A DNA stretch of 64,000 nt from Thozetella sp. PMI_491 (taxonomy: Eukaryota; Ascomycota; Sordariomycetes; Chaetosphaeriales; Chaetosphaeriaceae). The position numbers and the translations under genes were made by a program. The notes under the pieces were generated by a model that saw only the letters and a list, made by a program, of their open reading frames with translations, was not told the DNA's origin and did no database searches. The stretch spans positions 147,531-211,530 of the forward strand of contig MU270077.1 of NCBI GenBank assembly GCA_021432635.1, given 5' to 3'. Shown here in pieces: positions 101 to 64,000 of the stretch. Each line of letters opens with the position of its first letter. The first letter of the stretch is position 1.

Positions 101-139
101 AACTACTTTATTTATTATATATTTACTATATGATTATAT

Positions 140-290
140 AATCCTTAGTTAGTCCCTTAGTTAGTCTTAGTTAGTCTTAGTTACTCTTAGTCAGAGCTTA
201 GACTAACTAAGCTAGTTTTAGTCTTAGTCTTAATTAGTCTTAGTTAGTCTTAGTCAGGGCCTAGACTAGACTAACTAACTAAAATCACAA
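140..290. repeat. Degenerate CTTAGTTAGT-type repeats
   Basis: Loose, imperfect repeats of CTTAGTTAGT and CTTAGTCTTAG follow the octamer array. They look like low-complexity AT-rich DNA and contain no credible open reading frame. Confidence 0.6.
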
Positions 291-915
291 CCCTGTATAC
301 TTTAGGGCCTTATAATTAAAAGCTTTAATATTAAGTTATTTTTCTTATATAAAGCTTATTAAAGTTAAAACTAATACTTTAAATAATATAATAATAAAAG
401 TATTTTCTTATTAAGAACCTAATATAGAGTAGTATCTTATTATATTTTTAAAAAGATAATATATAGTTTTAAATATAATTATAACACTAAAAACTATACC
501 CTTTTTCTAATTAATTAATTATAAAGTATTAAGGTATTTTAACGTTAAAAATTAATAACTTAAGATAAGTATAATAAGTTAATATTTTATCTTAATTTAA
601 CTATATAATTATTTATTAATCTAATACTTAAAATATTATAGCTAATATATTATTAAAAATATTTAAAAAAGCTTTAAATATAAAAGGAAAAGTAAGATAT
701 TTATTATATTACACTCTTTTAATTTATAAGCTTTAGCTTTTTAAAGATAAAAGCTATAATAATATTTATTAAAACTCTTAATAAGACTTTTATATTTTTA
801 CTTATACTTAATTAACTATAATAATATATTATTATACACTTTGAATCTTAATATAAATATAGATATAATAATTTTTATAATTATAGATTAACTTAGAAAA
901 TATACTTAAATAATA
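291..915. other. AT-rich gene-free stretch
   Basis: Almost entirely A and T with stops in every frame. I see no gene, RNA or recognisable element. It fits a heavily RIP-mutated repeat that is too decayed to identify. Confidence 0.6.
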
Positions 916-920
916 ATACC

Positions 921-1132
921 TGTCACGCTCCTAGTTGATGGAAGGAGTGGTTAAAAAGCCACCTTAAACCAGTTAATTGAGGCTATCTTAAGGTGAGGAA
1001 AAAAGAGGAGGAGAGCATGCAGCGCGAAGTGTTGCGCAGCTATTTACAGGTGGGGTGGGCGCACAGGCTACTAAGCCCCGCGAAGTGGGGCTTTGGAAAA
1101 AGCTCGGCGTGGGCAGCGTATAGACCCTGACA
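921..1132. mobile_element. Solo LTR, 212 bp, not RIP-mutated
   Basis: The element starts TGTCA and ends TGACA, the inverted ends typical of an LTR. It is flanked by an identical 5-bp target duplication, ATACC, at 916-920 and 1133-1137. Base composition is near 55% GC inside DNA that is otherwise nearly all A/T, and CpG/TpG sites are intact, so it inserted after RIP stopped acting here or is too short to be a RIP target. No coding sequence is present. A diverged partial copy of the same family lies inverted at 9626-9684. A short non-autonomous (TRIM-like) element is an alternative to a solo LTR. Confidence 0.8.
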
Positions 1133-1461
1133 ATACCTTATAAATTAAATATTATATAGTTAAACTTTATTATAATTAAATGCTTTATTATATTTTTAGC
1201 CTTTTTCTTGGTATAATAAACCATTAAAAATCTTAATTTATAATTAATTTTATAGATAAAATATCTAAGATATTAAGTATTTAATAAAAACTATTACTAT
1301 TTAGACAGATAAAATTATAAATAAGTATTTATTAGTTATTATTAAAATAAATAATTAATTAATTACCTTATTAATATTTAATATAATATAAACAAGCTTT
1401 ATCCTATAAATTAATAAGGATATTATTTTATAAAGTAATAGTCTATTATTTATAAAAATAG

Positions 1462-1887
1462 TGTTATAACACTAAGATCTTAAGGTTAGTATTTTTAATA
1501 TGTAGGGTTTTTTTTTCCTAAGGTAGGGAAGATAAAGATAAGTAGAGTATTAATTGACGAAAGATAAGATCTAATAGTGTAGGTGTTAAGCTTATAAACT
1601 AAGTAGATTAATTACTAAAGAGTAAAAGCTAACTAATTTATCTAGGTAGAGACTATAGTCTTATATACTAGGTTGCTCTTTATAACTTACTAGGCTTATT
1701 ATAATAATCTAAGTAATCTAAAGCGCTAGGCTTACTATAGTGATCTAAGTGATCTTTCCTAATTAACTAAACATCTATATAAATACTTAAGGCATCTATT
1801 AAGGGTTTTACCCTTGCTAACTATTAGGCTTAAGCGCTAGGCCTTATTAGTAGTTATAGGGAGGTAGCTAATGCCTTAATTATAATA
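1462..1887 (-). repeat. LTR copy distal to the gene cluster
   Basis: Aligns over its whole length with 8727-9149. This copy is the more mutated of the pair: many TpG sites kept in the other LTR are TpA here. Because the coding strand is minus, this is the 3' LTR of the element. Confidence 0.85.
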
Positions 1888-3279
1888 TAATCTCTTTCTT
1901 CTATATTAATATTTATAGTAACTTATAAGTAGGCCCTAGCTTATATTTATTTAATTAGTAGGTTATTATAGTTCTTTCTTTTTTTATTATTATATTTTAA
2001 TAAGATGTTTAATTATATAAAGAAATGAAAATTTATAGCTGATAAAACTTATAAGTATTATATATTAACTACTTAAATTAATTTATACAGATTTATACTT
2101 ATACCTAATATAGTATATTCTTTTTATTTTAAATATAATCTAATGTATAAGATACTAGACAGAAAAGTATTAAGATACTTTAAGTATATAAAGTAAGGTT
2201 ATATATATAATAAATCCTTAGTGGCTTTATTTTATAAGTTTTATAAGTCTTATATATTAGGGGTATAATTTTATTAATAACTATTAATAATATTAAAATA
2301 CTTAAATAATTAAAAGAAATTATATCTTAAAGAAGAAGAGGCTAAAGAGGTATTATTTATATTATAGATATAGATTTCTATTATAATTAATTATCTGGCT
2401 TATTTATATAAGTAGTATAAAGCTTTAAAGATAAGGAGTATAGATTTATTCACTTAAAAGTCTATAAACTTAAAAGTTAAAGAGTTAGTAAAGGCTTATA
2501 TTATTAATTATTTAAGTAATCTTAATATAAGGGATTCTTCTTCTTAATTAAAGTTTAAGCTAGACCTTTTTATATTAGCTAATCTTAGTTTAGTATAGGT
2601 TAGTTAAGATTTTAAAGGTAAAACTATTAGATAAGCTTTTATAAGTTCTTTAGATATTTACTAGATTCTTATATATTTTTACTAATATTATATCTTATTT
2701 ATTTAACTAGGTACTTTAGTTTATCTTTAATATTATAAGAGTCTATAATTTTTTTAACTTTATATTCTAGTTGTTTATTAACTTTTATATATTTATTTAA
2801 TCTAGTGTTTTTTAGTATTAGTTTAAGTAGTAAGATATAAAAAATTAAGTATATTTATATTATTATAAGTAGTTTTAATTTATAAGTAACTTTACTAGTT
2901 TATTTTTTAATCTAAAATAGTCTTAATTTTTTAAAATCTAGTTTATTACTTAGTTATATTATTTTAATATTTTTTATAAGAGATAGACTTTATCTCTCTT
3001 TTAAAAGGTTAGTTCTTTTAACTTTTTCTAGTTAATATATTTATTTATTTTATCACAGATAAACTTTAGTTTTTTTTTATAAGTTTATACAAGGTTTTTA
3101 GTTCTTTAACTCTTAATTCTACTCTAGGATTTTCTTTTAAATTAAAAGAGGTTTAATAAACTTTTAGTTTAAAGTTATAATTAGTAAAGAATAAGAATAT
3201 CTTAGTTAATTTTTATCTAGTGTTATTATAAGTAAACTAAGTGATTAATAATAGTTATACTTAATTATTTTATTTATAG

Positions 3280-3800
3280 TTAATATAATAGTATAAGTAT
3301 TATTTTATTATTTAATTAAGTCTTTTTATTTATTTATTAGATTAAAAATAATAGGCTATTAATAATTAGTATTTAGTTTTAAGTTAGGCTATAAAAGCTT
3401 TTTAAAAGTTTAAAGTAAATAACTTATCTTTATTACTAACTAGTTTATCTAATAATTTATAATTTATAATAATAGTTTTTATAAATATATAAGTTAGTTC
3501 TTTAGTATTACTAGCTTTTTTATATAAGATAAAGTAGCTATACTTAATAAGTTTATCCATAATTACTAGGATATTATTAAAAGATGTTTTAATTAAAGGT
3601 TTTTTTTAAGGGTAATAGTTTTATAATAAAGTCTAGGGAGATTAAGCTTTATAACTTTTTAAAGATTAAAAGGGGTTATAATTCTTTATAGATCTTATAC
3701 TAATTCGCCTTATTTTTATTATATTTATTATAGTCTTTAATTACTTCTTTTATAATTTTTTTTTTAGCTCTAAGGAAGTTATAGGTGTGATATAATTATT
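3280..3800 (-). pseudogene. Integrase remnant of gypsy element
   Basis: Read on the minus strand, about 3409-3575 encodes a stretch resembling the integrase core (DKLIKYSYFILYKK, then a diverged form of the ISDRD motif with D to N changes). This matches the retroviral-type integrase segment of Ty3/gypsy polyproteins. Stops interrupt both sides. Outer limits are approximate. Confidence 0.6.
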
Positions 3801-4599
3801 CTAGAGTCTTAATAACTCTTTAATATCTATAGGAGAGGATTTTATATATTTCCTTTACTAGGTTTTATTATAAGGTGTTAAGGATATAGATTTTCTTATA
3901 AAATTAATAGACTTTATTTTTCTTTTTTATATTTTTACTAAGGCTACTTTATATAAAGTTTATAAAGTCTTAATTATTAGAAACTTTTTTAATCTTATTA
4001 GTCTAGTTAGGGTTTAGGATAATTTAAAAGGTAATGTTTAACTTTTAAAAAGCCTAGCCTAAGCTTTTATCTTTTAGGTTTATTAAGATACTTTATATAT
4101 ATAGTTTTAATTCTTATATATAGTCTTTTTATTAGCTAAGGGTATTTACTCTAATATTTTCTAGTCCCTTTTTATATATTATTTTAAAATTAAATTTAAA
4201 GAGGAATTTAATATATTTAATTTATTATTTATTTAGCTTTTTATTAGTTATAAAATAGGTAAGGTTCTTATAATTAGTATAAATTATAATTTAATATTAT
4301 ACTTTATAAAGATAAATCTTTTACTTTTTAAAGGCTTTAATAATAATTATTAGCTCTTTATTATATATCTAATAGTTAATTTCTACTCTTTTAAGCTTTT
4401 TTAAGAAGATAATTAGGTATAATAATTCTTTCTTATTATATTATCTAAGTTATTCTTTTATTATAAAGTCTAAAGAGTTAGTTTTTACTTTATATAGTTT
4501 TACTAGGTCTAAAAGTATAAGTATAGGTTTACTTAAGATTTATAACTTAATAGTTTTAAAGGTTTTACTAGTTTAATTAGTTTATTTAAACTTAATCTC

Positions 4600-5400
4600 T
4601 TTATAGGTAAGTTTTATAAGTGATAAAGCAAGCTTATTATAGTTTTTTATAAAGTAATAATAATAATTAGTAAATCTAAGGAAAGTTTATACTTCTTTTA
4701 TTGTTTTAAGTAGTAGTTAGTCTTATATTATAACTACTTTCTTAGGGTTTATCTTAATAAATCTAAGGGTGATTTTAAATCTTAAGAAGATAGTTTTTTT
4801 AGTGTAAAACTTATTCTTCTCTAGTTTTATTAAAAGTTTAATATCTTTTAAGGCCTATAGTATAATATAAATATATTATTTATATTTTATTTTATTTTTA
4901 GAGTAATAAAGATATTATTTAGGTAGATAATATAAAATTTATTAATATAAGGTTATAAGATATAGTTAATTATAGCTTAAAATATTACTAGGGTATTTTA
5001 TAGTTTAAAAGATATAATTAAATACTTATAATATCTATACTTAGTCTTAATTATTATTTTTTATTCTTTTTTTTTACTATTTAAATTAAGTTATAAGCTT
5101 CTTTTAGGTTAAAATATATTATTATTATTATTATTATAGCTCTTATTAGTTAGTCTTATAGTTTAAATATTAAAAGTAATAGTCTTTTATTAGGGATAAT
5201 AATACTATTAAGTTATTAATAGTTAATATATAATCTTTATTTTCTAATTTTATCCTTACTTTTCTTTAATATAAATAGGATTAAGTATCTTACTAGTAAA
5301 TTTAATAGTTATATATAACTTTTTTCTAGGTTTTTATTAAGGTATTATTATAAGGCTATAAGTTTTTCTTTATTAAGTCTATAGATTTTATATAATTTAG
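4600..5400 (-). pseudogene. Reverse transcriptase remnant of gypsy element
   Basis: On the minus strand, 4902-4925 reads YLNNIFIT, the catalytic YLDD box with both aspartates changed to asparagine by G-to-A transitions, as expected from RIP. Flanking residues are compatible with a gypsy reverse transcriptase, but all frames contain stops. Outer limits are approximate. Confidence 0.6.
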
Positions 5401-8400
5401 GTTATTCTCTTGGTTTAATTAGTATATAATAGGTAAACTAATTATATTTTAATAACCTTATATTTAATATTCTTTTAAATAGTTTATACTTTTAATATTC
5501 TTTTAGTATTTTATTTAAAGTTTTTATAGTAAATACTTTAATAATTATTATTATTTTAAAAATCTTTTTTATAAGCTTACTTAAAGGTCTTTTATAAGTT
5601 ATTTTAAAGGCTAAGTCTCTTTAAATATCTTTAGTTTTTTTTTAAGATTAATTAGGTATATTTTTTAAGCATTAGTTCAAAGAATATTTAGCTAGTTATT
5701 TAGTTAATTTTTAGGTTGTTTTTTTATAATTATAATATTCTTAGAATTAAATAGTATAATTTAATTTTTATAATATTAAAGGTTATTTCTTTATTATATA
5801 TATTACAAGTTAATATTAAAAGAGGTATAGTCTTTATTATAATATCTTTCTTTTTATATTAAGTTAGTTCTCTTTTTATAATATATAGGTAATATATAAA
5901 TTCTTTCTTATTTTAAAGTAGTTATAATTAGTTAATAACTCTAGGTAATATATAATTTCTTTAAGATCTATTATTTATTACTATAATAATATTATATTAG
6001 TTATTAACAATAAATATATAGGTAAGTAGTCTTAAGTTTAGGCTAGTAGCTATTATAAAAGTTTTTATCTTTAGGTTGTCCTACTAACTCTTTATAGATA
6101 ATATCTATTATTTTTTTATTTTTTATCTAAAGGTTAGCTATAAGTATTAGCTTTTTTTTATAAGATATAACTTATATTATATTATGTCTTTTAGTTAAGG
6201 CTTAAGTCTTATATTAATAAATTATTTCCTTATATATTTTATAGCTTTAATTCTCTTTTAAGTTGCTTTTATTTATAGATTAATAGGTCCTTCTCTTATA
6301 GTAATATATCCTTATACTTTTTTTAATGTTATTAAAGAGTTTTTTCTAGGTAATAATATAAATAGGCTATTAAAGTATATTATACTATAGTAGACTTGCT
6401 TTTATAATATACTAGGTATTAAAAGCTTAGTTTAAAAATAACTTATTTATTATATTATTCCTTTATTTCTTAGTATAATATCTCTTTATATAAATACAGT
6501 TCTTTAACTAGTTATACCTAGTTTTTAATAGGGAAGAAATTATATTTTAGTTTATCTATAATATATTCTTTATATAGTATAATATATTATATCTATATAA
6601 TGTCTTTATATCTTTTATTTTAAAGGCTTATTTAAGGGTTATTCTAATAATTTAGTTATTAGTTATTCTTTAACGAGTTATAATATAAAACTTTACTTAT
6701 AAAAAATAATATATATTCCTCTTTTAAGATTAAGTTAAGTTTAATCCCTAAGTATTCTTAAATAATAAATAAGGGTATATTATATAATTCTTTTATTATT
6801 TCTTCTTTAATTTTTAGTAGGTTATTATTAAACTCTTCTCCTTATTATTCTAGTATATAAAAAACAAGCTATTTATTATTTCCTTTATAGATATATATCC
6901 TAGTAGATAAGTTATCTAGCTATATTTTCCAGACTTTTTTTTATTATAATATATTATTATAAGATACTAAACTTTTTAGTCTTAGTTTAGGTATAAGGTA
7001 TTATATAATATATACTTATTATATCTATTATTATTAATTTAGGTTCTAATATATCTTTTCTTTAAGTTATTATTATTAATAAGCTACTCTTTAATATTCT
7101 TAATATATAATAAATACTAGGTATAGCCTAAAGAGCTTAAAGGTATATAATAGTTAGCTTTTATATTTCTATTCTTTTTATCTATAGTTCTTATAAGGGG
7201 TTTTTAAGCTAAGGTTCTTTTTATACTATTACTTTTTACTATAGTAAGCTATATATATCCTACTTATTTTTAATAATATCTTCTTTTATCTTTACTTATA
7301 GGCTTAGAGTTACCTTATGTTAATACTATTAGTATTATCATTATTTAATAAGGCTAAGTACTTTAGTATTAGTCTAGGGTAAGATATAGCTTCTTATATT
7401 ATTAGTTTATTTAAAGATATATATTATTTTAGTATTAATCCTTTTATTAATACTATAATATAAGTATTATTAAGGTTTATAGTATTATAGATTAGATTAT
7501 TTTATATAGTTATATTTAAGGTTTAAATAAGTTTATATTATATTAGGTTAGTAGATTATTTTTTAAGTATTAGCTTCTAGCTGATTTTCTTAGGTTGTCT
7601 ATAATTATTTATATAATATCTCTTTTTCTAATAGTTATAATATTTAATATCCTTAGGGTTTTATTTAAGGTTTTATTAAGTTATATTTAAGTCTATAAGC
7701 CTAGTATAAGTCTTATATATTATAGTCTTTTAATATTAATTAGTAAAGTGCTTAGACTAGTTGTTTTATTATAGTTTTCTAATGTTTACTTCTTATTTTA
7801 ATTCTTATTACTCTTTTTTTATCCTTTATTTATATAATTAATTATTAATATAAGTTATTATTTTAATATATAAATTATAATAGAAAATCCTCTAGGGGTT
7901 TAAGCTTAGAGATTTTATCTTTAACTTTACTCTTAAATCCTTAGTAAAATAAGAACCTCTTAGTTTTATCTATATAGTTAAGAAGTAAGTAAAGCTATTA
8001 AAAGTCCATTATATACTAAACTATTAATTCTTTCTGCTTAAGTTAATATAAGTCTTATTCTTATTAGTGTTTTTTATTAGGTTTTTAAAATAGGGATCTT
8101 AAAACATACTTATATCTAGTATAAGAGGTAAATATACTCTAAGTTTTAAGTTATAATATAAGGGTAAATCCTTTTTTAAAGAACTTTATAAGATAAGGTT
8201 TAAACTAGACTAGCATTTTTCCTTTAAGGAATAAAGTAGTATATACTACTTTTTTAGCTTTATTTTAAAAGCTATTATTATAAAAGTAATAATATACTCT
8301 TATTTAAGCTAGCTAGTTATTTAGTTATCTAAGGGTATTATTAAAGATTTATAATAGGTTAAGCTTAAGTTTCTTATATCTTATAATAGGGGTTATAATA

Positions 8401-8726
8401 ATATTAGTAGTAGTATATAATAGATTAACTTTATTAATAAGTTTAAAGACTTAGTATACTTTATTATAGACTTTTTTTAAGATTTTAGCTATTTTATTAA
8501 AGTTATTCTTAAGCTTTTTATAAGTGTGGTTAGTATTATCTCTATTGTTTTCTCCTATGTCTTTTATTTCTTAGTTAAAGCTGTGTTAAATAAGGGTCTT
8601 ATTTTTACTTTTGTCAGACTTATTAGAGTTATAGCTACTAGTAGACAGAGTATTTTTATTAGATATATTTAACTATAGAATATTATTAATTACACTTGTC
8701 TTATCCTCTAAAGAAAGTAATTAATA

Positions 8727-9149
8727 TATTATAACACTAAGATCCTAAGGTTAATATTCTTAATATATAAGGGGTTTTTTCCTAAGATAGAAAAAATAGA
8801 GACAAGTAGAGTATTAATTAATAAGATAAGATCTAATAATATAAGTATTAAGCTTATAAACTAAGTAGATTAATTACTAAAGAGTAAAAGCCAACTAATT
8901 TATCTAGGTAAAGACTATAGTCTTATATACTAGGTTACTCTTTATAGCTTACTAGGCTTATTATAGTGATCCAAGTGATCTAGAGCGCTAGGCTTACCAT
9001 AGTGATCTAAGTGATCTTTCCTGATTGACTGAACATCTGTATAGATGTTTGAGGCATCTATTAGGGGTTTTGCCCTTGCTGACCGTTGGGCTTAAGCGCT
9101 AGGCCTTGTTGGCGGTTGCGGGGAGGTGGCTGATGCCTTGATCGTAACA
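8727..9149 (-). repeat. LTR copy proximal to the gene cluster
   Basis: Partner of the LTR at 1462-1887, and the 5' LTR given minus-strand coding. Its last ~140 bp (after about 9010) keep many G and C bases that are A or T in the other copy, so mutation load falls off sharply toward the element end. Confidence 0.85.
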
Positions 9150-9319
9150 AATAGGTAATAAGCCTTTTTATATAATTATTATAAATATTAATATAAAAGG
9201 GGGAGATTATATTATAAATATATATTAGCCCTTAACCTAATAATCTAACCTAATAATCTGCCCTAATATACTTAAGGCAGATAATAATAACAGAACTTAT
9301 AATAAATACTTTAGGTATT

Positions 9320-9625
9320 TATATATATATCTAACTAATAAGAAAGAATCACCAGTATTTAAATTACTATTAGATCACTAGTAAGCTTAATAAGCTATAG
9401 TGAGCTAGTAAAGAGTAACTTAGTATTTAAGACTATAGTCTCTACCTAGGTAGATCAGTTGCCTTTACTCTTTAATAATTAATCTACTTAGTTATACGCC
9501 TAATACTTACACTATAAATCACTATACTGTATTAATTAATTACTCCACTTGTTAAGTCCCCTCTACCTTAGGAAAGAACCCCTACACGCAAAGAATACCA
9601 ACCCTAGGATCTCGGTGTTGTAACA
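9320..9625 (+). mobile_element. Truncated inverted copy of the gypsy LTR
   Basis: The reverse complement of this stretch, starting TGTTACAACACC at 9625, aligns with the first ~250 bp of the LTRs at 1462 and 8727. Similarity fades near 9320. It is therefore a partial LTR in the opposite orientation, less RIP-mutated than the complete element. Confidence 0.6.
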
Positions 9626-9684
9626 TTAACTAGTTTAAAGTAGCTTTCCTAACTACTTATTCTATCAACTAGGAGCATGACAAT
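9626..9684 (-). mobile_element. Fragment of the 212-bp LTR family, inverted
   Basis: The reverse complement starts TGTCATGCTCCTAGTTGAT and follows the 5' end of the element at 921-1132 for about 59 bp with mostly C/T and G/A differences. It then breaks off at the inverted gypsy LTR, so the latter probably inserted into it. Confidence 0.6.
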
Positions 9685-9852
9685 CCTAACTGATTAATAG
9701 GACAGATATATAAGTGCCTAAACATCTTTTATTAGTTCTACTAGAGTTGTTAGTCTTAGGAGGCACTAGGCTATGTCTTAGGTCAAGACTAATATATTCT
9801 TATAATAGTTATATCTAATAGTAGTTAAAATAAATAATAGCTATACCAACTA

Positions 9853-11030
9853 TTACATCACTGGGAATGCCAGGTAATCCCACAACTCTCCAGCTCTAAC
9901 TAGTTGGGTATCTAATGAGGTACTTCCAGTCCCAATAAAGAGAACCTTAGTAAACGCCACTCTACTCCAGTAGCTAAAGGTAACATTAGCAGGAATAAAA
10001 GCCACGTCGCCGCCAATTAAGGAAATATCGTCATAGTCATCGATTTTAATCGTTAGTTGACCCTCTAAAACCTCAAAAGCAGACGCTCCCTCGAGCTGGT
10101 AAGTCGGAGTTGTGTCATTCGAGATCGGTCTGCTGATGGAAATAGTTGAGAGCGAGTAGCTCAGATCCTGTGCCTGCTCTGGGGTGACCAAAGGCTGCAC
10201 GATCTGATAACTATGGTCAGAGCTTAGGTACTTCGGCCCGTACCCATTGGCAATAAAATATGGTTCACCAGCGTCGCCAAGCTCATTAGCACCAGTGTGC
10301 CACATGGCCTCTGTGGGGGCAGATCCGTTGATAATATCGCGCCTCGGAGTGAACTCCAATTGAGCATAGACATCGAAGTTCTCGAGGGCTGAACTAACTG
10401 TTGAGTTGGGCCCAGCAGATGAGCCGTTGCTGGCAGAAGCGGGCACATAAGGCGTGTCTATCCCCGAAGAGAAATTAGTGCCCAAGGCGTAGAATAGCTC
10501 TCTACAGACGGCCATGTAATGTTAGTACTCGTGCGTATATTGAAAGCAAGGGGGCTCACTTACTCGAACCCTCCGGGCACAATGACCCCGACCATCTCAG
10601 TGTCGGGATCCAAAATTTGAAAGGTGTGAGTCGTATTTCGGGGAACTGATCCGTAGTCGCCGGGGCCAATGACGCGTGCCTGCTGCTCTCTGTCCTCTTT
10701 CTGGCCCCACAGTTGAAAACGTCCCTTAAAATTGAAGAAGTTCTCATAATGTGTTTGATGGATGTGAGGAAGGACTCCAAGGCTGTCACTGGAGGGACTG
10801 TTGGTGGAGAGAAGGCTAAACGCATTGCCCGAGGACGGCCCGGTAACCATGAAGCGGTACAGCTGGCTGTCGATGGTGACAGCATGGGAATTCTTATAAT
10901 GCTCGATAACGTAAGGTCGGACATAGTCCGGTGCCTCGTCAACGTATAGGAGGCTTGCGTCGAGGCCAGATGTAGGTTGTGTGTGCAGAAGCAGAGCGAC
11001 CGCGGCCAGGGCCGCTATAGACTTTGTCAT
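9853..11030 (-). CDS. Secreted quercetin 2,3-dioxygenase-like cupin
   Basis: Two exons (11030-10564 and 10501-9853) give 371 residues. The 62-nt intron has donor GTAAGT and a perfect TACTAAC branch site, and rejoins the frame at FEELFYALGTNF. A signal peptide covers about residues 1-22. The N-terminal cupin carries His89, His91, Glu96 and His135; this HxHx4E...H set and its spacing equal the copper site of Aspergillus quercetinase. The C-terminal half is a second cupin fold without the metal set. The family opens the flavonol C ring with release of CO, giving a depside ester. It is likely extracellular, which suits attack on plant flavonols. It is the outermost cluster gene and its stop lies under 200 bp from transposon debris. 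Other bicupin dioxygenase substrates remain possible. Confidence 0.85.
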
Positions 11031-19964: not shown

Positions 19965-21780
19965 CTACTCCTGGTAATAATCCTTGGTTCTATACTCGGC
20001 TGCCTCCAAGCACTCCTTTAGAGCCTGCGGGTCCCGTGGAACGAGCGTTACCTTGAATTTCCTCGGAATTGCGACCAAGGCAGACTTGAACTGGTTGTAG
20101 TCCACATAATCGGTGTTCGGCGGCTCCGTCTCGCTTGCTACAATCTTGTATGACGACAAAATTCGGACTAGAGCGGAATAGAGCAGCCTAGAGGCGATGA
20201 ACTGACCAGAGCAGCTGCGAGCTCCCGTGCCAAAACTCAGGTGGGGGAGCCCAGTAATTTCGGCCTCGGCCGGGGGATCAAGCGTCTTCAGCCATCTCTC
20301 AGGGTCAAACTGGGCAGCATCGCTTCCGAAGTGGTCGACATCTGCGGAATGTTAGTACTTGGAATCAGTACACCAGCTTGCATTCTGGTCAATTCGGGTA
20401 TAGGATAGGCGCACCATGGTTGCCAGCTTGGGCGTTGATCAGAATCATCGTCTTCGGGGGGATTATGGCGCCGTTCCAGTTGACTTCCGTGACCGTCTTT
20501 CTCGGCAGACTCATCGAGCTAACGGTGTAGTACCTGCCAGCCTCTTTGACGATTGCGTTGATATAGGGCACCTTTTCGTCCACGAAGCAATTGGTCCAGG
20601 CGTCGTGGAGGTTTGGGTAGTGCCTTTTGATGTCTTCATACGCGCGGTCCTGCCAGACCTGCCCCTCCTTGGTGGCGAGGGAGCCGATTGCGGAGGTGAG
20701 GGTGCCCGGAATTGTCTCGAATCCGCCAGAAACCAGCGACAGACAGATGGAAGAAACCTCCACACCGGTGAGCTTCGTTTCCTCGTCCTTGAGGATGGCA
20801 GCGGAGATGCATGGTTTGTCTGTGCCCTTCTTGATCATCTCCCGGACCTTGTCCAAGAGTAGATTTAGATAGACGTCGCGACGGTCACGCAGCTCTTTGG
20901 AACGGGCGTTTTTCTCATTGTTCGGCATGTACCGCAACAAAGGGACGTAGTCTTGGAGGTTCTCAGATGCGCTGCGGAGCAAGGAGATGGCAGATCCTAC
21001 GTGAAGGATCTCGCGGAGAAGCTCGTCGTATACGTTGTCCATGCGGATGCCGTAACAGAGAGTCAGCGTGGTGTTCAATGCGTAGCGCTGGATGTACGGC
21101 CGCACGTCCACCTCGACTGCTCCATCACCGCTGTCCTTGCACATGTCTCGAACGATGCAGTAGCTCTCAAGGTCGAACATCGGGTAGTAATTCCTCAGGG
21201 CCGGCCGCCCGAGGGCTGTGCCGGCAGCTTTACGCTTCTTCTTGCACGACTCATCCCAAGGCGAGGAGCCGATAGTGAAACCCTGGGTGCTGCTGATGAT
21301 GCCGTGGAAGGTGTAGAGTTTCGGGCGGTCTATCAGGGCATTTTGGTTTCCCAGGAGCATCTTCTTGCAATCCTCAAACGAATTCACTACAACAGCGCGT
21401 GTATTGCCGAGGCGGATCTGGAACACTGAGTGCTTGTACTGGCGCCACCATTTCTCGCAAACACTCGCATGATCTTCGCCGAGCTTGAGAAGATGGCCAA
21501 AGACTGGAACCGCCCCAGGAATCTCTGGTAAACCCTTAATGTGTGGGATATCTGTGGCAAAAGCCGCCTGACATCTCGTTTTAGCTGGATACAGGAAACA
21601 ATAAAAGGGCCGCCTAGTCCTGAGTAGTCTTGCAGCATCGACCTAGGAACTGTAACTGACCGTGTACAGAAGGTACGATATAATCACGACCGAGACGGCG
21701 ACCAGAACCGGTGCTGCCTGCTCAAGATTCCCGAGCCGCAGCATCAAAGGCCCTAGAAAGTCCTCGCCGAGTGTAGACAT
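19965..21780 (-). CDS. Cytochrome P450, CYP504-like (phenylacetate hydroxylase family)
   Basis: Three exons (21780-21661, 21567-20415, 20341-19965) give 549 residues. The last intron has a TACTAAC branch and restores NHDVDHFG. An N-terminal membrane anchor (about residues 22-40) is followed by PHIKGLPEIPG. Landmarks: I-helix SGGFETIPG, ExxR as EAGR, and haem loop FGTGARSCSG with the axial Cys. The run STQGFTIGSSPWDE and the overall spacing match fungal CYP504 enzymes, which hydroxylate phenylacetate or 3-hydroxyphenylacetate en route to homogentisate. It is probably an ER-bound monooxygenase. A related aryl-acetate substrate generated by the neighbouring amidase is plausible but inferred. A CGG-N5-CCG site lies 250 bp upstream. 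Confidence 0.82.
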
Positions 21781-22830
21781 GTTGGTCGCTATCCTGTGGT
21801 TTCTGTCTAGGGATAAAAAAACAGGACCGTAATGATTCGCCTCGAAGATCGTCTCAGATATTCTGGCCTTGCTGGTCAGAGAGTTATCGACTAGAAGTGA
21901 TATGGACGCTCTGGTACCTGTCTCTTCGCTGTAGATGTGGTGCTAGGCGAGCAAAGGAACCGACTGCCCTGTCTTGCCTTATGCTTCGGCTGGCTATGGA
22001 GCGGGGCAGCATCCGATGGTACATGACGTCGGATGTGCCGACAGTTGTCCCTGGGGTAAATATACCCACACACCTAGTGTCCGGCGGCCATAGCGACTGT
22101 GTGACATGCCCTCATAAACATACAGGCTGTCCAAGACTAACTACAGGGCCTTAGCTAGGGTTACCTCGCGACGCATTTGCGCTCGAATGTACCCCGAACG
22201 ACACTAGCATCGAAACCAGAGATAATGGCGGGGTCCGAATAATTACGTCACGTAAAACTCTAGGGTCCAACACCATTGGCGAGATAGGGATAAGAACTAG
22301 GAACGCGACTAATTTTTGAATGTATCCGCGAACTCCTGTGACCGGCTGGCGCAGAACAGACTGCCCTGGCACCGCTATCGGCGTCATGCTTTACGCATAT
22401 CATTATCAACTCCGTGCGTTTCTACAAAGCTTCCCGTGCCCAAGAGACCCCTGCTCGCCTAAATGGTTGGCAGAAGCTGGAATCTGTGCACTGTCTTGGT
22501 GCATAATTTGTAGTGTATGATGACCGACTTCAGGGCCAAGTGCTCTCCTCTAATTTTACCCTTGTACGGTGATGCCCTTGTCTTCGTATGTGACGGAGCT
22601 GAGAACAACCAAGTGGTTCTCGTTAGACCATGGGCGCAACACGGCTACATCTTCACGCACTAGCAGTGGTACAGGGGTATGGAAAAGGGCAGCGGTTGGA
22701 ATTTCTTGGTGTTTCAACTACTATCTGAGTACGAGAAGATAAATCAACATCTTTTCTCGTCCCACGTGCGGACACTGCTAGGATATTCATTGCGTGTGCC
22801 AAGATTGCGTGCCCGCACCACGGCCTAAAC
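21781..22830. other. Intergenic region between the two P450 genes
   Basis: About 1.05 kb with only short frames. It carries the promoter of the CYP504-like gene at one side and the 3' region of the second P450 at the other, plus the regulatory candidate at 22030-22040. No gene recognised. Confidence 0.5.
22030..22040. promoter_or_regulatory. CGG-N5-CCG site upstream of CYP504-like gene
   Basis: CGGATGTGCCG, 250 bp upstream of the P450 start codon; a candidate Zn2Cys6 site. Confidence 0.4.
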
Positions 22831-24560
22831 CTATGATAGTTGCCTCTTCTCAAATTCGATCCAGCATTCGTGCTCCTGCGGCAGCTCAGTTAGCGATCCT
22901 AGGTTATATGCGAGATAGAACTAAGACCTCGCTCACCTTGACCCGCTCAAAGCTCTCGTCGTAGAACACTTCGAAACGGCTCGTGATACCAGGGCTCACC
23001 CCCTTTTGTCTCTGCTGCTCAGCGGTAGTGTATTTCCGGTAGAGAGCTGCCAAAAGAGTTGTCATCTCTGCCATGGCAAGGCTATTACCCTCTAGTCAGC
23101 GATCATTCCAGCTCTCTTCTTATAGTGTGCCGAGGAATTAAAACGTACTGCATGCCAATGCACATGCGCCCGCCGCTCGAGAAGGCCCAAAACCATCTCT
23201 TCATCTCAGCTAGATCACCACACTCCCCCAGCCATCTTTCCGGCATGAATCGAAGAGGCTGGGGGAACACTTTCTCATTGCGGTGCAGGGTATACGGCGA
23301 CATACTAACGACCGTCCCGGCGGATATGAGATGGCCGTCAATCGTTGTATCCACTGGCAGTGACCGAGGTTCTGACGCGGGGAGGGGCGCATAGAGCCGG
23401 AGGGCTTCTTTGATGATTGCGTCGAGGAAGGGCAGCTTGTCCGCGACATCGGCTGTCGGGTGTCCATCACTGTTACACGAGCTAAGCGGGATCTTGTCTA
23501 GCTCAGCGATCAATCTCTCCTGGTAAACTTTGTTCTCGTCTCTCGAGAGCGCCCAGATAACGAACATCAACGTGTCACTAGTGGTGTCAATTCCGGCCAA
23601 GAAGTGATCTGCGGCCTCCGATGCGATGTCGAGCCCATCGAGTCGAGGCTCCTTTTCGCTCCTTTGATGCTTCCAAAGCTTTGCAACAATGGATGAATCG
23701 TCCTCTGATGTGGCAGTCCTAGCTAGGAGGTCGGATTCGATATTGTTCCATGCCTCCAGAGCGTGGCTGCGAATACCGGTATAAGTCGCGGGCTTGCTCA
23801 TGGGGAGCAGCCCTAAGTTGGTGATAATCTTCTCTGCTAGTCCAGTTCGTGTATAAAGCCACTTGGTATAGGCTCTAAGGTGGATAGCATACCAGCTAAG
23901 CCTCTTCCTACTGGGCTCAATGATGTCATTAAGCATGGCTCGGTGTGCCCTATCTCCCACGAGAGCCCGGGTCCCCCCGTGCTTGTTTCCGTATAGGAAG
24001 CCAGTAATGCTATCAAGACTAAACCAGTGCAAGCTGTGAAAGATCTCCTGGGCAACATTCTTTTCCCGCTCCAGAAGATCTAGGAAGTCTTTGACGTTCC
24101 GCTCTATCAGAGGGCGAGCAATGGCCGCGGGGGAGAGAACGACGCTCTTGGAGTAGGCATGGGCAAGAATCTTCTTTCGCTCAGCATGCTTATGCACTTC
24201 GGCGAAAGTAAACAGGTTCTGTCGGCCGTAGACGTCAAACATTCGATAGAAATTGGTTCGCTCAAACCCCGAGCCGGCCCCGTAGATAGCACGCAAGGCC
24301 GAAAGCGAAGAGAAGGAGACCTCGTCGGGGCTAACTCGCACGGCGGTCCCGTACTCTTGGTGCAAGGCATGTATCGCACGCGTTCTCGTCCCCCGGTAGT
24401 CGTCGAGAGCAAGTCGCCATTTGGTCATGGCATACGCTCTGGGGCCAGGGATGCGACGAATTGGCGACGCGACAAGCGGCCAGTAGACATAGCGGTAGAA
24501 GCTGTATGCAAGAACAAGGAAAAGGATGAATTGCTGAGGGCTGCTGGCCGCAAATTGCAC
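22831..24560 (-). CDS. Cytochrome P450 monooxygenase
   Basis: Three exons (24560-23149, 23081-22937, 22875-22831) give 533 residues. The first intron (67 nt) interrupts just after the haem Cys and rejoins as CIGMHLAMAEM. The N-terminal anchor is QQFILFLVLAYSFYRYVYWPLV, then a proline hinge IRRIPGP. The I-helix is AGIDTTSDT, ExxR is EALR, and the haem loop is FSSGGRMCIG, all intact. The general layout is that of fungal class II P450s related to the pisatin demethylase/benzoate hydroxylase groups; I cannot assign a CYP family by eye. It shares a 700-bp divergent promoter with the class II aldolase, with a CGG-N5-CCG site in the middle. Confidence 0.88.
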
Positions 24561-24846
24561 GGCTAGACGGATTCCAAGAGTGTCAATGCTTGGGATATCC
24601 GAGGTGGATTTGGTGTCACTGACCTTGCTGAATTGTGCTGCCTGCCATTTTTAGTGTCTCGCAACCCGCACCGAAGATTACTTCGGTTCCTTGGACCATG
24701 CAGCAACAGCCCGTGGCGAGCAGACCCTGTGCTCAATAAGGGAAAGGCGAAAAGGGAGCACAGGGCGGACAATCGCCAAGGGGCGGCCGTCGTGTTGCCC
24801 CGCCCTCTCCACACTCACGGCCCCTCCTTCTGTTGTCGGGTCCTGT

Positions 24847-57531: not shown

Positions 57532-58104
57532 CTAAAATTCATCCTCAGCCGTCTTCAGCTGATGCGCTCCATAGACCTGAGGAAGAGCGTTGGCCCTCGC
57601 CTTGACTTTGAAGTCATCTTCCGCCGTCTTCAGCTGATGGGCACCATAGACTTGAGGAAGAGTGTCGGCCCTAGGTTTAACCTTGAAGTCATCCTCAGCC
57701 GTCTTCAGCTGATGCGCGCCATAGACCTGAGGAAGAGTATCGGCCCTCCGCTTGATCTTAAAGTCGTCTTCCGCTGTCTTCAGCTGGTGGGCGCCATAGA
57801 CCTGAGGAAGAGCGCCGGCCCTCGCCTTGACTTTGAAGTCATCTTCAGCTGTCTTTAGCTGATGGGCACCATAGACTTGAGGAAGAGTGTCGGCCCTAGG
57901 TTTAACCTTAAAGTCATCTTCAGCCGTCTTCAGCTGATGCGCGCCATAGACCTGAGGGAGGACGGCTTCAGCTGTGGCGCAACTGTAATTAGATTGCAGG
58001 TAGATAGGCAGCGGGGTCTATTTTCACCTACGAGCGGCAACAGGCGCGGCAATGCTCAGGCTCACTGTAGCCGAGACAGCAAGAAGGACCTTGGAAAGGT
58101 ACAT
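57532..58104 (-). CDS. Repeat-containing secreted RiPP precursor (dikaritin/UstA-like)
   Basis: Two exons (58104-58032 and 57971-57532) give 170 residues. The 60-nt intron has donor GTAGGT, a CTAAT branch and acceptor CACAG. A signal peptide (MYLSKVLLAVSATVSLSIAA) comes first. Six repeats follow, each with the invariant core LPQVYGAHQLKTAEDDF (last copy ends AEDEF). Spacers are AD/AG/AN and K[VI]K[PAR]R, giving a 25-residue period. Basic ends KPR, KAR and KRR suit Kex2-type cleavage in the Golgi. Signal peptide plus tandem repeats with basic sites, divergent from a UstYa oxidase, is the layout of fungal UstA-type RiPP precursors. The core probably includes the Tyr and His of VYGAH, but its limits cannot be set since the whole unit is conserved. 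Opposite-strand frames here are shadows. I do not recognise this repeat from known members. Confidence 0.82.
57535..57962 (-). repeat. Six 75-bp in-frame repeats with 225-bp higher-order period
   Basis: Units 1-2 and 4-5 share silent-site variants and the same spacer order (KPR then KAR; unit 3 ends in KRR). This shows that a three-unit 225-bp block was duplicated. Differences between units are mostly synonymous. Confidence 0.85.
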
Positions 58105-58857
58105 CTTTTTCAATGGGTCTGATGGGAAAGGTGTTGTGTTTCTTCTGGGAAAGGTAACTGTGAATTGCTTGAGAAACTTGAAGTATTAATACGATCTGGC
58201 GCCGGCTGCGACTTGCCGGGGTTTGGAGAGGGTGGCAACGGTGTTGGATAGTCTAAGGCTGGAGGCTCGCGATTCAATTAGGATTGCTTATCACTTTGGG
58301 CAGCTGCCTAATCTGGCAACCGATTCTAACTACCTGGTTGGAAGTTAGTGGTAGGGGCCACGTCCCCGCCGTATTACCTCAATGGTCAGTCGATGATACA
58401 CCACTTCTGCAACTCTGCCGCAAGCTCGGAGATCTCTTATTCGTAAAGGAAGGTGGGTAAGCGATGGACATGTCGTTACCGGGCCTGAACTAATCACGGG
58501 GTGAACACTTGACCATTGTAGATGGATAGACCCACGCTGGTAGCCGAAGTTCTTTGGCGATTGGAGAGGTTTGCGAGGGAATTTGGCGGGTATGCGTTTC
58601 AGACGTAAAAGTCCGAAGGAATGCGAGGTGGCTAAACCTTCCAAACCAGACCTGCCTCTTTGAGGCATCTTGGTTAAATAGAAGCAACCTTTACTAAGCT
58701 GATGCCTTGGCAAACGCAAAGCAACCATCTCAAGACCGTGATAAGTGCCCAGTTCATCTACAGCCCCTTAGCCGCGCCCTGCTTACTCCTCAGACCTGTG
58801 CTTCTCTCACCGCCCGACTCTCAAAATCGCTCACATCTGGATTGAAAATTCCCCGGC
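58105..58857. promoter_or_regulatory. Divergent promoter of precursor and UstYa genes
   Basis: 753 bp shared by the divergent precursor and oxidase genes, which suggests joint control. I see no clear palindromic regulator site. Confidence 0.45.
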
Positions 58858-59837
58858 ATGGAGTATGAACAACTAAGTGAATCTAAGGAGTCACTACTGC
58901 CGGGCGAGGGTCCTCCCGCCCGATGGAATACTCCTCGATCTAGCCGGAGCGCATGGGTCAAAGCATCTATTTGCTTGAATTGTTTCTTGCTCCTCGTGTC
59001 GGTGGCACTGCTGGTCGATCGCCAGCATGAGTTCATACCACGAAAGCCAAACTCATGGCTGCGCCAGACCTCGTACTATTGTACGTGCCCAGTCGAGGAT
59101 GCCCCCCTAAGGCCAGCTAAGACTAACAAGACCCAGCGCCATTATGGGGAACAAGTCTAGAGAGTAATCTGAGGAAGGAAGATCACCTGATGGATGGTAG
59201 CCTCTTCGAGACGACCAATCCATCGCGTTATCGCAACGGTCTGTCGCCTTCCGACGACGTAGAGAAAGCCTGGCAGGAGATTGAATGGATCCGCACTTTC
59301 CCCATTACCGCTGAGGATGTGAGGCGAATTGGCAAGGATCCGGAGCTGGTGGCCAAATTCCCGATCGAGTACGGGTTCGGAGATGATGCCTACGTGGCGC
59401 AGCTCGACATCTTCCACCAGCTTCACTGTCTCAATCTCCTAAGGCACGTTGCTTGGGGCGAGTTCGACCGCGACGGCAAGACGGCAAAGCGGCCCTATTC
59501 CGATCTGCACTGGATCCACGTCGCGCACTGCACAGAGGTTCTACGGGAGAACCTGATGTGCAGTGCCAACCTGGACATCATCACTTTCAACTGGAAGGAG
59601 ACGCAGGACCTGCCATTTGCCGATTTTAACGTGAACAAAAAGTGTACCAATACCGCCGTCATCATGGAATGGCAGCAGAAGAACACAATTGAGACGGAGA
59701 GAGCCAGGAACTTTACTCGACCAGCCGGCGCCAAAGAGGTTCCAATCAGCGACGAGTACTTCAGGATCTTTGGTGTCGAGAGAGTGGATCTCCATCCGGG
59801 CGAAGCACACGAGCACTCGTACAAAGGGACCTCCTAG
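58858..59837 (+). CDS. UstYa-family oxidase (DUF3328)
   Basis: Two exons (58858-59080 and 59182-59837) give 292 residues. A cytosolic N terminus is followed by one membrane helix (AWVKASICLNCFLLLVSVALLV, about residues 33-54) and a lumenal domain. Both family motifs are present: HQLHC at residues 153-157 (HxxHC) and HCTEVLREN from residue 190 (HCxExLRQ-type, with Glu for Gln). These His and Cys residues are thought to build the metal-dependent active site. UstYa proteins oxidise and cyclise core residues of secreted RiPP precursors in the secretory path. Divergence from a repeat precursor makes that role likely here. Only one copy is in view; known pathways often use one or two. Confidence 0.88.
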
Positions 59838-60118: not shown

Positions 60119-61243
60119 TCATGACCACTCTTTCCCATACTCTGGCAGGCTTTCCAGCAGCTCTAAGCTATTGTGATCTTCAATAGCCGCGCTATGCCTT
60201 GCCGACATGATGTTTACTCTTTCCTTTGACTGCATAATCGGCGGTGTGAGGGCCCAAGCGAACCCATGCAGGTTGTGCTTCCGGTACTCAAACCACGCTT
60301 CATCCTTGCTAAATTTCGGCCCCCCGGCTGCGTGCAGCTTTTCAAGATAATGCTCGAATATACCTTCTTCGTTCCGTCTTCTTTCCTCAATCTCTAAGGA
60401 CCCAACAATGAAATAGGCCACGTCGTGAATCGCGGAGCCGGTGTGCACCCCCTGCCAGTCCAGGAAGCCAGGCTCTCCGGCAGGCGTGACGAAGGTGTTT
60501 CCGATATGAGAGTCTCCATGCAGCACGCACGTAAACTTCGGGTCGGTGGAATTCCATAGGCACTTGTATGCTTTGATCATGCGCTCTCGATCAACGAGGT
60601 GGGCCGGGACAGGCGGCCGAGAGTCGCCATCGAAGCGACCTGCCCAGGGTTCCGGACCCATCATGTTCAAAATCACATGACGCAGCGACATCGCCTCCAA
60701 TAGCCAAGGGTACTTCTCGGCCCCCGCCCCCCAAGTTTTTGCATGGAGGAGAGCCAGCTGTTCGACCCCTGCGCGGACGCGCTCGATAGGAAACGATACA
60801 AGGGGGTCGCCGAATGTGCTCCCGGCGGCCTTGAGATCTTGCATTACCACGATACCCTGGCCGGATTTCGTGTCTGTGGCGCACCAGTACGAAGGAGGCG
60901 TTCGCATGTTGAGCAATGGATCCAGATAGTAGAAAAAGGAGGCCTCAAGGCGATATACACCCATCAGCATGGGGTGGATGGCGAGAAGGGCGGTATTGAA
61001 GCCTCCCTTCACGCACACATGCTTCGGCGCACCCTCCTCTGGGTCCTCATAGTTAAGCGACACAAGTATCTTGCTGCCTGTACCGTGAATCTCCTCGACA
61101 ATGGTGGCAGTCGTCACTTTCCGGCCGAGAATGTCGGTAAACCACTCCGCTGTGAGCTGCTCAGGTCTAAGCGGCAACTGGTCGCTCACACCAATGACAC
61201 CTTTGGCACCTGATGGAATGGGGAAACTAGTTAGACCGCCCAT
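60119..61243 (-). CDS. Aminoglycoside phosphotransferase/CHK-like kinase
   Basis: An intronless 374-residue frame of the APH/choline-kinase-like fold, close to the DUF1679/EcKinase group. The catalytic loop HGDSHIGNTF and the metal loop FLDWQGVH (DFG-like Asp) are intact, and KILVSLNYED lies near the ATP-binding N lobe. It should phosphorylate a small hydroxylated or amino compound in the cytosol; the substrate is unknown. It ends 281 bp from the convergent UstYa gene. It could be a tailoring or self-protection enzyme of the RiPP locus, or an unrelated neighbour. No signal peptide or membrane helix. Confidence 0.85.
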   Translation of the reverse strand: MGGLTSFPIPSGAKGVIGVSDQLPLRPEQLTAEWFTDILGRKVTTATIVEEIHGTGSKILVSLNYEDPEEGAPKHVCVKGGFNTALLAIHPMLMGVYRLEASFFYYLDPLLNMRTPPSYWCATDTKSGQGIVVMQDLKAAGSTFGDPLVSFPIERVRAGVEQLALLHAKTWGAGAEKYPWLLEAMSLRHVILNMMGPEPWAGRFDGDSRPPVPAHLVDRERMIKAYKCLWNSTDPKFTCVLHGDSHIGNTFVTPAGEPGFLDWQGVHTGSAIHDVAYFIVGSLEIEERRRNEEGIFEHYLEKLHAAGGPKFSKDEAWFEYRKHNLHGFAWALTPPIMQSKERVNIMSARHSAAIEDHNSLELLESLPEYGKEWS

Positions 61244-62177
61244 GTTTTACCGAGTCAAACACACAATCGTCCATGTCTTGTTGCTCCGAGGGGATACCTA
61301 TTATATGATGCAATTTATGGCCACCACCAAAGCGTGTGTGAAAGGTGGGGTGGGTTGGGCTCGAAGGAAGTGGAGAAGAGATCGGTCGTCAAACAGGTTA
61401 ATTACCTACCTAAGTAAGCTATCTAGGTAGGTACAGTAATAGCTGGAGGTGAGGTACTTTTTGTACTTTCTGCACTTTTTGTCCCTCTGCAGCCGAGGGA
61501 GGGCGACAACCCCGGTATTGGGGACGGCACCATGTCGCTGTAGGATTTAGCGCCACTCACTAGGAGATCGCTAGGAAGAAACCTTGTAGTCAGTGCTGCT
61601 GGCATTAGAGCTAGAGGTATCATCTTAGCTTTGGCATAGCTGGTGAAAGGAGCTTTTATCAGAACTTATGAGGATCTATCGCAGTAAGTATACCCAGCTA
61701 TTGGTCGCACCAGCCTGATTGCAGCTTTCCTCGCGCCAATCAACTTCAGGGGCCAGTCACCTAGGTAGTAGCATAAATGGTCCTTAGTCCAAGAATGGGG
61801 TTGGTAGGGCTAGGACTATATTTATTAGGATCCGGCGCTTGAAATCTGTACATTTATATTTCCGGACAGCAGGTGTCTGGGAAATATATGTACTTTCCTC
61901 CATAGGAGGATAGCTCTGCGAGCAGCGCGAGCATGGAGATGAAGATGATTAAATTCATCTCCAGGAAAGGAACCGTAACTCTTAGAAATGGACATATTTC
62001 TATTAACTGGGCAATAGATCACCGATGATTGAACGTGGTGCAACGTTTATTGAGTGCTGGGGCTAATGATGACGTGTCGGAAGCGGTACAAGGTAGATAG
62101 GCGATGCAAGTTAATGCAGTAATATTTGTATGGAATCTTCTCTAGCTCTTGTGTGTTTGCTTACGATTAACCAGAAA
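61244..62177. other. Intergenic region
   Basis: About 930 bp upstream of the kinase gene and downstream of the peptidase. It has short TACC/GGTA-type repeats near 61403-61435. No gene recognised. Confidence 0.5.
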
Positions 62178-64000
62178 TTATCGGCTAGAAATTATGGAAG
62201 ATGCCTTCTCCAGCGCAGTAGCAACTGTCCCTAACCACTGGTTTGCTCCTTCAATGTCATTCTTCTCTAGGCTTTCCAGAACTCCGGGGAAAGCAACACC
62301 ATCGTAGCCATACCACAGGCCAGGTGCAAATATCTGGAAGTCAGGATGTCAGCTTCAACACTGCTGATCGCATCGGCGTAGGCGGACTAACCATGTGTCT
62401 GTACCACGGCCTACCAGGCAGGCCACCATTCTTGTCCAAGAGGAAAGACCTCTCCAGGTTGATATACTGCTTGTTGACCTCAACTATCTCTGCCTCGTCT
62501 CTGACCTGGGCGTCCATCGCCTTGAGAGCACAGGCCCGCGCGTCGAGGTTTTGGGCGGCTTTGTCAAACGCCACTATCGCATCCTCAAGCGGCTGCCAAT
62601 CAAGTGACCTTCCAGCCTCCTTCAGTTTTAGTGTGGCAAGGTGCCTCTGTAACGACTCAGAATAACTCCCGGCCTCAAACTGTATCAGATGTACGCCTGC
62701 GAGGCGCACAGCCAAAAGCCCAAAGATCTGCGCCATCGCACGGTGTTTCTTAAACCCCACATCGCCGAAGTGCTCTAGCCAGTAATAGCTGTCATAGTTG
62801 GAGTGATATGGATAGACAGATGTACCCTGCCTATTAAATATCATATCCACGGACGGGATACCAAGATGGTCGAAAAACACGGTGTAGTCGCTCCCAGTGC
62901 CCATCAAATCCAGCAGAGGCTGCTTAACATTGGGGTTTCCTCTTTGTTGATCGCTTAGCCAGTCATCAAAGACAAGCTTGCCTTCATTTACCGGAGAAGG
63001 CACCTTATGGGTTATGTCACGGAGCACTGAATCTAGTAGGGGACTACCCGTTGCGCCAAGGACATTGCCACCATTTGTCGACTCGTCCACATTGATATCT
63101 GCAAGAGCTTTTTAGTACCGCCCCGATTCCTCTTTTCAGTGGGACTTCTAACTTACAAGCAACGCAATTACGGCTCAGAAACTGCGCGTTATGCTCTCCC
63201 CACTCTGTCGACCCAACGAGACCGTACTCTTCATTGTCCCACGAGGCAAGAATACTGTTGCACTTCTGTTAAAATCGACCAGAATTGCCAACCCCAAGAA
63301 GCAGGACTGTTTACTCACATCTTCCTGTAAGGTTTCCACCCTTGCGAGACCAGCACGCCGAGGCCCCGTGCTACCTCGTTGATTGCCGCGCTGCCACTCA
63401 CAGGGTCTACAGCGCCGGGACACCATGAATCATGATGGTTCCCCAGCACAATGCATTCGTCTGTTTCCCCGCTAACTGTGCCGATAACGTTATAGATGGG
63501 TGCATATCGATATTCCCCTTCTCATGTAAGCCGAGCACCTCATAGATAATGCGAACTCCGACCCTACCTTCATTATATAATGAAACCTTTACTCGGCTAG
63601 GCCCCGTGTAATAGTTAACACCGTCAATCTCGCCTTTCCAATCAGCGCCGGATCCGCCAATCTCATCGGGGCTAAGACCGCATCCATTAAGTGCAAGTAG
63701 AAACGGCGTCGCGTCGGCGAAGGAGATGGGCAGAGACGGGATCGTGGGAATGGCGTGTGTAGGATCCAACCTCTTCGTCTCATCCCCGGGTAAGCTCGGA
63801 TAGCCAGGAGTGGACGGATCCCCGACTGCTACCGAAAAGAAGTCCACGCTCCCTCTCTGGATGCTCTTCGGGTGGCGGGCTGGGCCGTGAGGATAGTGCT
63901 GGTAACCGTTCTTCGCGGTATACTCGCCATCCTCCTGCGGATCGTTGTACATGACAACGCCAGCGGCGCCAAACTGCTCTGCAGCACGGACTTTGAGACC
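62178..64000 (-). CDS. M28 family metallopeptidase, 5' end beyond window
   Basis: Five exons in view (64000-63568 partial, 63520-63319, 63254-63157, 63098-62392, 62333-62178); introns are 47-64 nt except 58 nt for the last. The 47-nt intron rejoins as SLYNEEGEYRYAPIYNVIG. All zinc and catalytic residues of glutamate-carboxypeptidase-II-like enzymes are seen: His/Asp in LGNHHDSW, Asp in GAVDPVSGS, Glu-Glu in WDNEEYG, Asp in INVDES and His in YPYHSNYDSYY. The C-terminal dimerisation domain follows. The family removes C-terminal acidic residues from peptides. A role in trimming the Glu/Asp-rich repeat peptides of the nearby precursor is an attractive guess only. The start, any signal anchor and upstream exons lie outside. 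Confidence 0.88.

Follow-up and report, generated by a model that had tools for sequence, protein, structure and literature searches.

Does the pair of divergent genes near the end of this stretch encode a pathway of the dikaritin type? Dikaritins are described as RiPPs that derive from a KEP and are cyclised by UstYa homologs (PMC10512285). The window, that is, the whole 64,000-nucleotide stretch of DNA that we analyzed, contains a precursor with highly repeated core sequences (five full units and one shortened) and, as the adjacent gene, a UstYa (DUF3328) gene with two HxxHC motifs, which is the neighbor expected of a dikaritin precursor. We found that the precursor/UstYa pair is probably real and that a compact dikaritin-like pathway, in which a secreted multi-core precursor would be oxidised by UstYa, is a likely reading of these sequences. 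The locus is distinguished from similar pairs by the unusual cut sites between its units.

The minus-strand precursor gene at 57532-58104 gives a 170-aa product after removal of a predicted 60-nt intron (Table 1), and the sequence prediction bears out the coordinates, strand, intron, and product length given in the original prediction. By inspection, the N-terminus is hydrophobic, ends in ...SIAAPVAA, and is signal-like. An alternative intron of 45 nt (58027-57983) likewise preserves the frame; however, a branch-like CTAAT starts 21 nt before the intron end in the 60-nt model and 10 nt before it in the 45-nt model, the predicted 60-nt splice having the better-spaced site. After the intron comes PEAV, followed at a period of 75 nt by six tandem units of the form LPQVYGAHQLKTAED[D/E]F, separated in order by the linkers KVKPRADT, KVKARAGA, KIKRRADT, KVKPRADT, and KVKARANA. 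Six repeats of 25 residues had been proposed: six copies do lie in tandem, but only five are full length, and the sixth has 17 aa. Between full units, 72 of 75 nt are identical for units 1 and 4 and 70 of 75 for units 2 and 5, with 61-63 matching nt of 75 in the remaining eight pairs, which fits duplication of a three-unit block.

Table 1. Positions of the features discussed, in window coordinates unless a contig is named.
Feature	Position	Strand	Remarks
Precursor exon 1	58032..58104	-	encodes MYLSKVLLAVSATVSLSIAAPVAA and ends one base into the following codon; resembles a signal peptide
Precursor intron, predicted, 60 nt	57972..58031	-	GTAGGT ... CTAAT at -21 ... CACAG
Precursor exon 2	57532..57971	-	repeat array and stop
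Repeat array, six units	57535..57960	-	LPQVYGAHQLKTAED[D/E]F with linkers
Unit 1	57960-57886	-	full, 25 aa
Unit 2	57885-57811	-	full, 25 aa
Unit 3	57810-57736	-	full, 25 aa
Unit 4	57735-57661	-	full, 25 aa
Unit 5	57660-57586	-	full, 25 aa
Unit 6	57585-57535	-	17 aa, cut by stop
Divergent intergenic region, 753 bp	58105..58857	.	possible shared promoter (putative role)
UstYa exon 1	58858..59080	+	N-terminal hydrophobic stretch, read by eye; matches annotated homolog P0001
UstYa intron, 56 nt	59081..59136	+	GTACGT ... ACTAAC ... CCAG; splice supported by P0001
UstYa exon 2	59137..59837	+	PF11807 match
First HxxHC motif, HQLHC, residues 168-172	59415..59429	+	no substitution of H168 or H171 across the 37 aligned rows
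Second HxxHC motif, HVAHC, residues 202-206	59517..59531	+	H202, H205, and C206 at least 90% conserved
EcKL/APH-like kinase gene, adjoins UstYa	60119..61246	-	domain match
M28/PA/TFR-dimer (carboxypeptidase-like) gene	62199..64000, approximate, runs past window end	-	domain matches
Precursor L022	C18:605.5-606.7 kb		divergent from UstYa C18:604429; three ADESYIWPAG units, KLKGR junctions

The repeat unit is translated and constrained by purifying selection, because its variation falls on third codon positions and only one frame of the array is free of stops. Across the 51 nt common to the six units, no first or second codon position varies, all 12 variable columns being third positions (hypergeometric P 3.9e-8), and across the 75 nt of the five full units this holds for 16 of the 22 variable columns (P 6.8e-6); amino-acid variation is concentrated in the linkers. 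In pairwise comparison of codons, the proposed frame makes 99 of 129 differences synonymous and the frame of an antisense ORF 22 of 129; the proposed frame is the only stop-free one among the six. The antisense ORF was rejected as a real gene on these counts and on a stop in the array. One further antisense frame, with 82 of 126 differences synonymous, nevertheless carries 17 stops within the array and was ruled out by them. The original prediction had placed the longest frames on the strand opposite the precursor; this is true of the antisense ORF (113 aa) only when bacterial start codons are used, whereas the longest stop-to-stop frame is a minus-strand one of 161 aa. Pfam reported five families on the repeat ORF, of which phage G1 gp67 and acyl-ATP thioesterase exceeded whole-protein cut-offs; in none does any stretch pass alone, and we dismissed them as a repeat effect.

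Across the 753-bp gap, in the divergent orientation that had been foreseen, stands an intact UstYa gene with a product of 307 aa; it has an intron of its own (Table 1), which the original prediction left out. Both histidine motifs that it was said to contain are present, and C172 is also at least 90% conserved when the window UstYa is aligned with 36 of its 62 homologs (37 rows). By its PF11807 score (E 6.6e-43; 147.5 bits against a Pfam cut-off of 25) and its conserved HxxHC pairs, the predicted protein belongs to the UstYa family. Its splice is supported because an annotated Coniochaeta protein (P0001; 69% identity over 99%) has equal length and shares the YYSPLWGT context. A second Coniochaeta protein is 77% identical over 72% of the query, and a protein from a metagenome contig (P0004) is 86% identical; the named homologs among the 62 are from Coniochaeta, Xylariales, Fusarium, Cadophora, Mollisia, and Apiospora. 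Judged by identity, the Coniochaeta proteins (69% and 77%) are likelier orthologs than the paralogs in the same genome, because the best-scoring paralog exons are only 37-42% identical, with a few shorter ones at 47-52% over 52-89 residues. No solved structure was matched by UstYa, two profile matches (E 0.69 and 0.9) having been dismissed, and an AlphaFold model of exon 2 (mean pLDDT 68.7) was left unused.

The five junctions between units read, in order, KVKPR, KVKAR, KIKRR, KVKPR, and KVKAR. The original prediction had the repeats end in basic sites, which holds only in part, because four of the five are not dibasic Kex2 sites: one has KRR and the others KPR or KAR. Arg at P1 and Lys at P3 and P5 are retained at 5/5 junctions. 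A KEP, as defined in a published survey, has at least three repeats between KR, KK, RK, or RR Kex2 sites (Umemura 2020, PMC7329392), and the window precursor falls outside this rule because only one of its five junctions is dibasic. Among seven other precursors of the same genome, described below, six have junctions that are dibasic or form longer basic runs (KR, KKR, KK, and similar), with KER at one junction of the L014 precursor.

The seventh, L022, is an unrelated precursor that reads ...ADESYIWPAGGKLKGRETASGADESYIWPAGAKLKGRETASG... and has the same non-dibasic junction, K-(V/I/L)-K-x-R, in the form KLKGR at 2/2 junctions. For this pattern we scanned 293,218 aa in 3,856 different ORFs, each of 40 aa or more, from the window and the other regions sampled. 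It occurred in 8 of them and in two or more copies only in the window precursor (5) and L022 (2), a post hoc comparison with n=2 in which the motif was taken from the window precursor and L022 was found via its repeats, not the motif. Thus two unrelated precursors carry it, one with VYGAH units (5/5 junctions) and one with ADESYIWPAG units (2/2). From these sequences we tentatively suggest, while giving it rather less than even credence, that K-(V/I/L)-K-x-R may be a second genuine unit-release site in some of the precursors linked to UstYa. Surveys that demand KR, KK, RK, or RR would overlook such pathways and undercount the class if cleavage does take place at the K-x-K-x-R junctions.

We investigated how often such pairs occur in this genome. 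A six-frame UstYa search yielded 203 candidates, the best 150 of which gave 149 matches; with matches less than 700 bp apart merged, these correspond to at least about 120 UstYa-family genes, spread over 107 regions, in 72 Mb, some of them perhaps pseudogenes, a figure made differently from the 9399 annotated DUF3328 counts given for 1461 strains (PMC7329392). Our sample comprised 23 regions with 25 UstYa genes, namely 20 from the head of the 107, which were worked through one contig at a time in order of best match, and three chosen as close paralogs. A repeat precursor lies divergently upstream of 8 of the 25 genes (7 found by script, 1 by eye), or 7 of 22 if the three hand-picked regions, whose sequence is largely from the upstream side, are left out. 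Those found by script are at C84 (two genes), C2:1598207, C2:1474881, C18:604429, C63 (the window), and C9; at the eighth, C15, the script gave the antisense frame, and divergence was assigned from the reading frames. The same-strand repeat upstream of C2:1478932 is the precursor also counted for C2:1474881. One of the 25 genes (C18:332054) has a repeat ORF, with no signal visible, on its downstream side; the 60-aa repeat protein in L021, whose long ORF shows no signal and follows its UstYa, was left out of the precursor count. At 15 of the 25 genes, a repeat ORF within 4 kb was not detected at the threshold used, and the rest of the window and L011-L013 held no further repeat ORFs above thresholds.

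Tyr occurs in the repeat unit of each of the eight precursors. Six of the eight are predicted to begin with a signal-type exon and an intron of 52-91 nt, the phase of which is 1 for the window precursor, L020, and L022 and 0 for L014, L029, and L036; the L015 precursor needs no intron, and the remaining one runs unbroken from the signal but is incomplete. The pair at C2:1.597 Mb (L020) resembles that of the window in its head-to-head arrangement, signal exon, and phase-1 intron (GTAGGA, 52 or 55 nt) of similar layout, with a UstYa 42% identical; it differs in its 11-aa unit, AGIDYIKEGKR, with KR sites. Like L020, the divergent precursor/UstYa pairs in L015, L019, L014, L029, and L036 have dibasic sites; the units of these six include AGIDYIKEGKR, QLYRDNGGGYSALVPGDVEKR, and EPGTYGVDTFGAIKR.

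In the surroundings of the pair, the M28/PA/TFR-dimer gene beyond the kinase gene could possibly supply a trimming peptidase for the pathway. Past the window end, the contig continues (L011) with M20 peptidase, MFS transporter, and methyltransferase genes no farther than about 9 kb from the kinase; their products would suit trimming, export, and methylation, and they are a possible extension of the cluster. The other side of the pair holds carboxylesterase, Ras-like, short-chain dehydrogenase, and amidase genes. Tyrosinase, PKS, and NRPS domains were found in none of the 25 window proteins and the 10 proteins of the next 20 kb (L011-L012). Elsewhere in the window, positions 1-10000 form an AT-rich block (GC 16-28% vs 50-58% elsewhere), and positions 20389-24650 contain two cytochrome P450 genes, with Zn2Cys6 and other fungal transcription-factor domains further on.

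Searches for relatives of the precursor, which need shared five-residue words and depend on gene calls, turned up 82 candidates with words in common among 5.8 billion predicted proteins, and none of these reached E<=1. The antisense ORF, used as a proxy query for loci called only in that frame, found no relative among its 1 candidate. Neither result amounts to absence, because fungal exons without start codons may go uncalled. The motif VYGAH occurred in none of 5.39 million open papers, a scope outside which supplements and subscription papers lie. As counted in the survey cited above, 7878 KEPs occur in 1345 of 1461 strains, 1758 of the 7878 near DUF3328 genes (PMC7329392). Because 1758 precursors are listed near such oxidase genes, the locus is of a common kind and not a new class; its non-dibasic junctions set it apart. 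Only five dikaritins are given as reported by 2022 (PMC10512285). With one oxidase and one precursor, this is a small system that could allow a UstYa protein to be linked with its substrate.

If the locus is a dikaritin-like pathway, the precursor would enter the secretory pathway via its signal peptide, and UstYa would oxidise it at the tyrosine of QVYGAHQL. A kexin-type protease would then cut between units after the conserved Arg of K-(V/I)-K-x-R, and exopeptidases would trim the ends. Signal function, expression, cleavage at the non-dibasic junctions, crosslinking, and the identity of the mature core are what we infer from the genes, as are cyclisation and the VYGAH core. The kexin P-domain (P_proprotein) has one match in the genome, in a stretch that contains stops, as expected with an internal intron; this match, the coding-frame evidence, the intact UstYa, the recurrent divergent pairs, and the peptides apparently cleaved after a single Arg that KEPs reportedly gave on expression in P. 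pastoris (PMC9769878) speak for the pathway, and the reading is strengthened because seven more such pairs exist in the same genome. Conversely, four of five junctions are non-dibasic, unlike those of six of the seven other precursors; a precursor homolog was not found, although UstYa has 62; the 15 sampled UstYa genes lacking a detected repeat ORF have to be accounted for; and tyrosinase is absent from the proteins scanned. The UstA/UstYa-type pair of the original prediction stands as the best reading, with the junctions and the failed KEP rule counting against it.

Three other readings were weighed. The 75-nt array could be a minisatellite or part of the antisense ORF, with no precursor gene in existence. 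The overlap of the array with the 113-aa ORF and the two unrelated Pfam families above whole-protein cut-offs would agree with this, although neither family passes on any stretch alone, the synonymous differences favor the proposed frame (99 vs 22 of 129), a stop interrupts the antisense-ORF frame within the array, and the first exon fits the layout of the other precursors; we regard this reading as extremely improbable. If the gene is accepted, it could still be a decaying or processing-defective relic, in which dibasic sites have eroded to KPR or KAR and units are no longer released. Such erosion would explain why the junctions depart from those of six of the seven other precursors and why junction positions differ between copies while the unit is nearly invariant. 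Nevertheless, the 17-aa unit is under purifying selection in an open frame, the Arg and both Lys residues are retained at every junction, and a second precursor has KLKGR at both of its junctions, which together make a relic quite unlikely.

The remaining reading has UstYa act on another substrate, while the repeat protein, once secreted, would be cleaved to linear peptides that stay unmodified and serve as signals or in an effector-like role. UstYa proteins are reported to act outside RiPP pathways as well, being found in polyketide and nonribosomal peptide clusters (PMC12048977), and 78% of KEPs are listed without a nearby DUF3328 gene, some being linear pheromones (PMC7329392). However, precursors are divergently paired with 8 of the 25 UstYa genes examined, the unit contains Tyr, and the 25 window proteins scanned have no PKS or NRPS domain. 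We consider linear peptides unlikely, yet the least unlikely of these three, and prefer the dikaritin-like pathway.

Compared with known systems, the locus resembles the KEPs described near DUF3328/UstYa genes (Umemura 2020, PMC7329392; Marquer 2019, PMC6339444) in its Tyr-containing tandem units, its UstYa neighbor, and an N-terminus that looks signal-like by inspection, whereas its K-(V/I)-K-(P/A/R)-R junctions, one of five dibasic, depart from the KEP rule (PMC7329392). With ustiloxin and phomopsin (UstA/PhomA; PMC6514808, PMC6339444), as these are described, it shares a multi-core precursor, here predicted to be secreted, and a UstYa-family oxidase; in contrast, its unit lacks the EDYxI core and KR separators, and no tyrosinase is among the scanned proteins. 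The crosslinks in ustiloxin, phomopsin, and asperipin-2a are given as tyrosine ethers, the victorin ring as closed via phenylalanine, and the phomopsin UstYa homologs as serving desaturation too (PMC6514808, PMC9233826, PMC10512285). Unlike the asperipin-2a locus (aprA/aprY/aprT/aprR; PMC6514808), the window has the unit VYGAH rather than FYYTGY, a reductase was not identified next to its pair, and the closest MFS domain detected is about 8 kb from UstYa. As in the described asperipin-2a locus, however, one UstYa homolog stands beside a multi-copy precursor, and no tyrosinase was seen among the proteins scanned.
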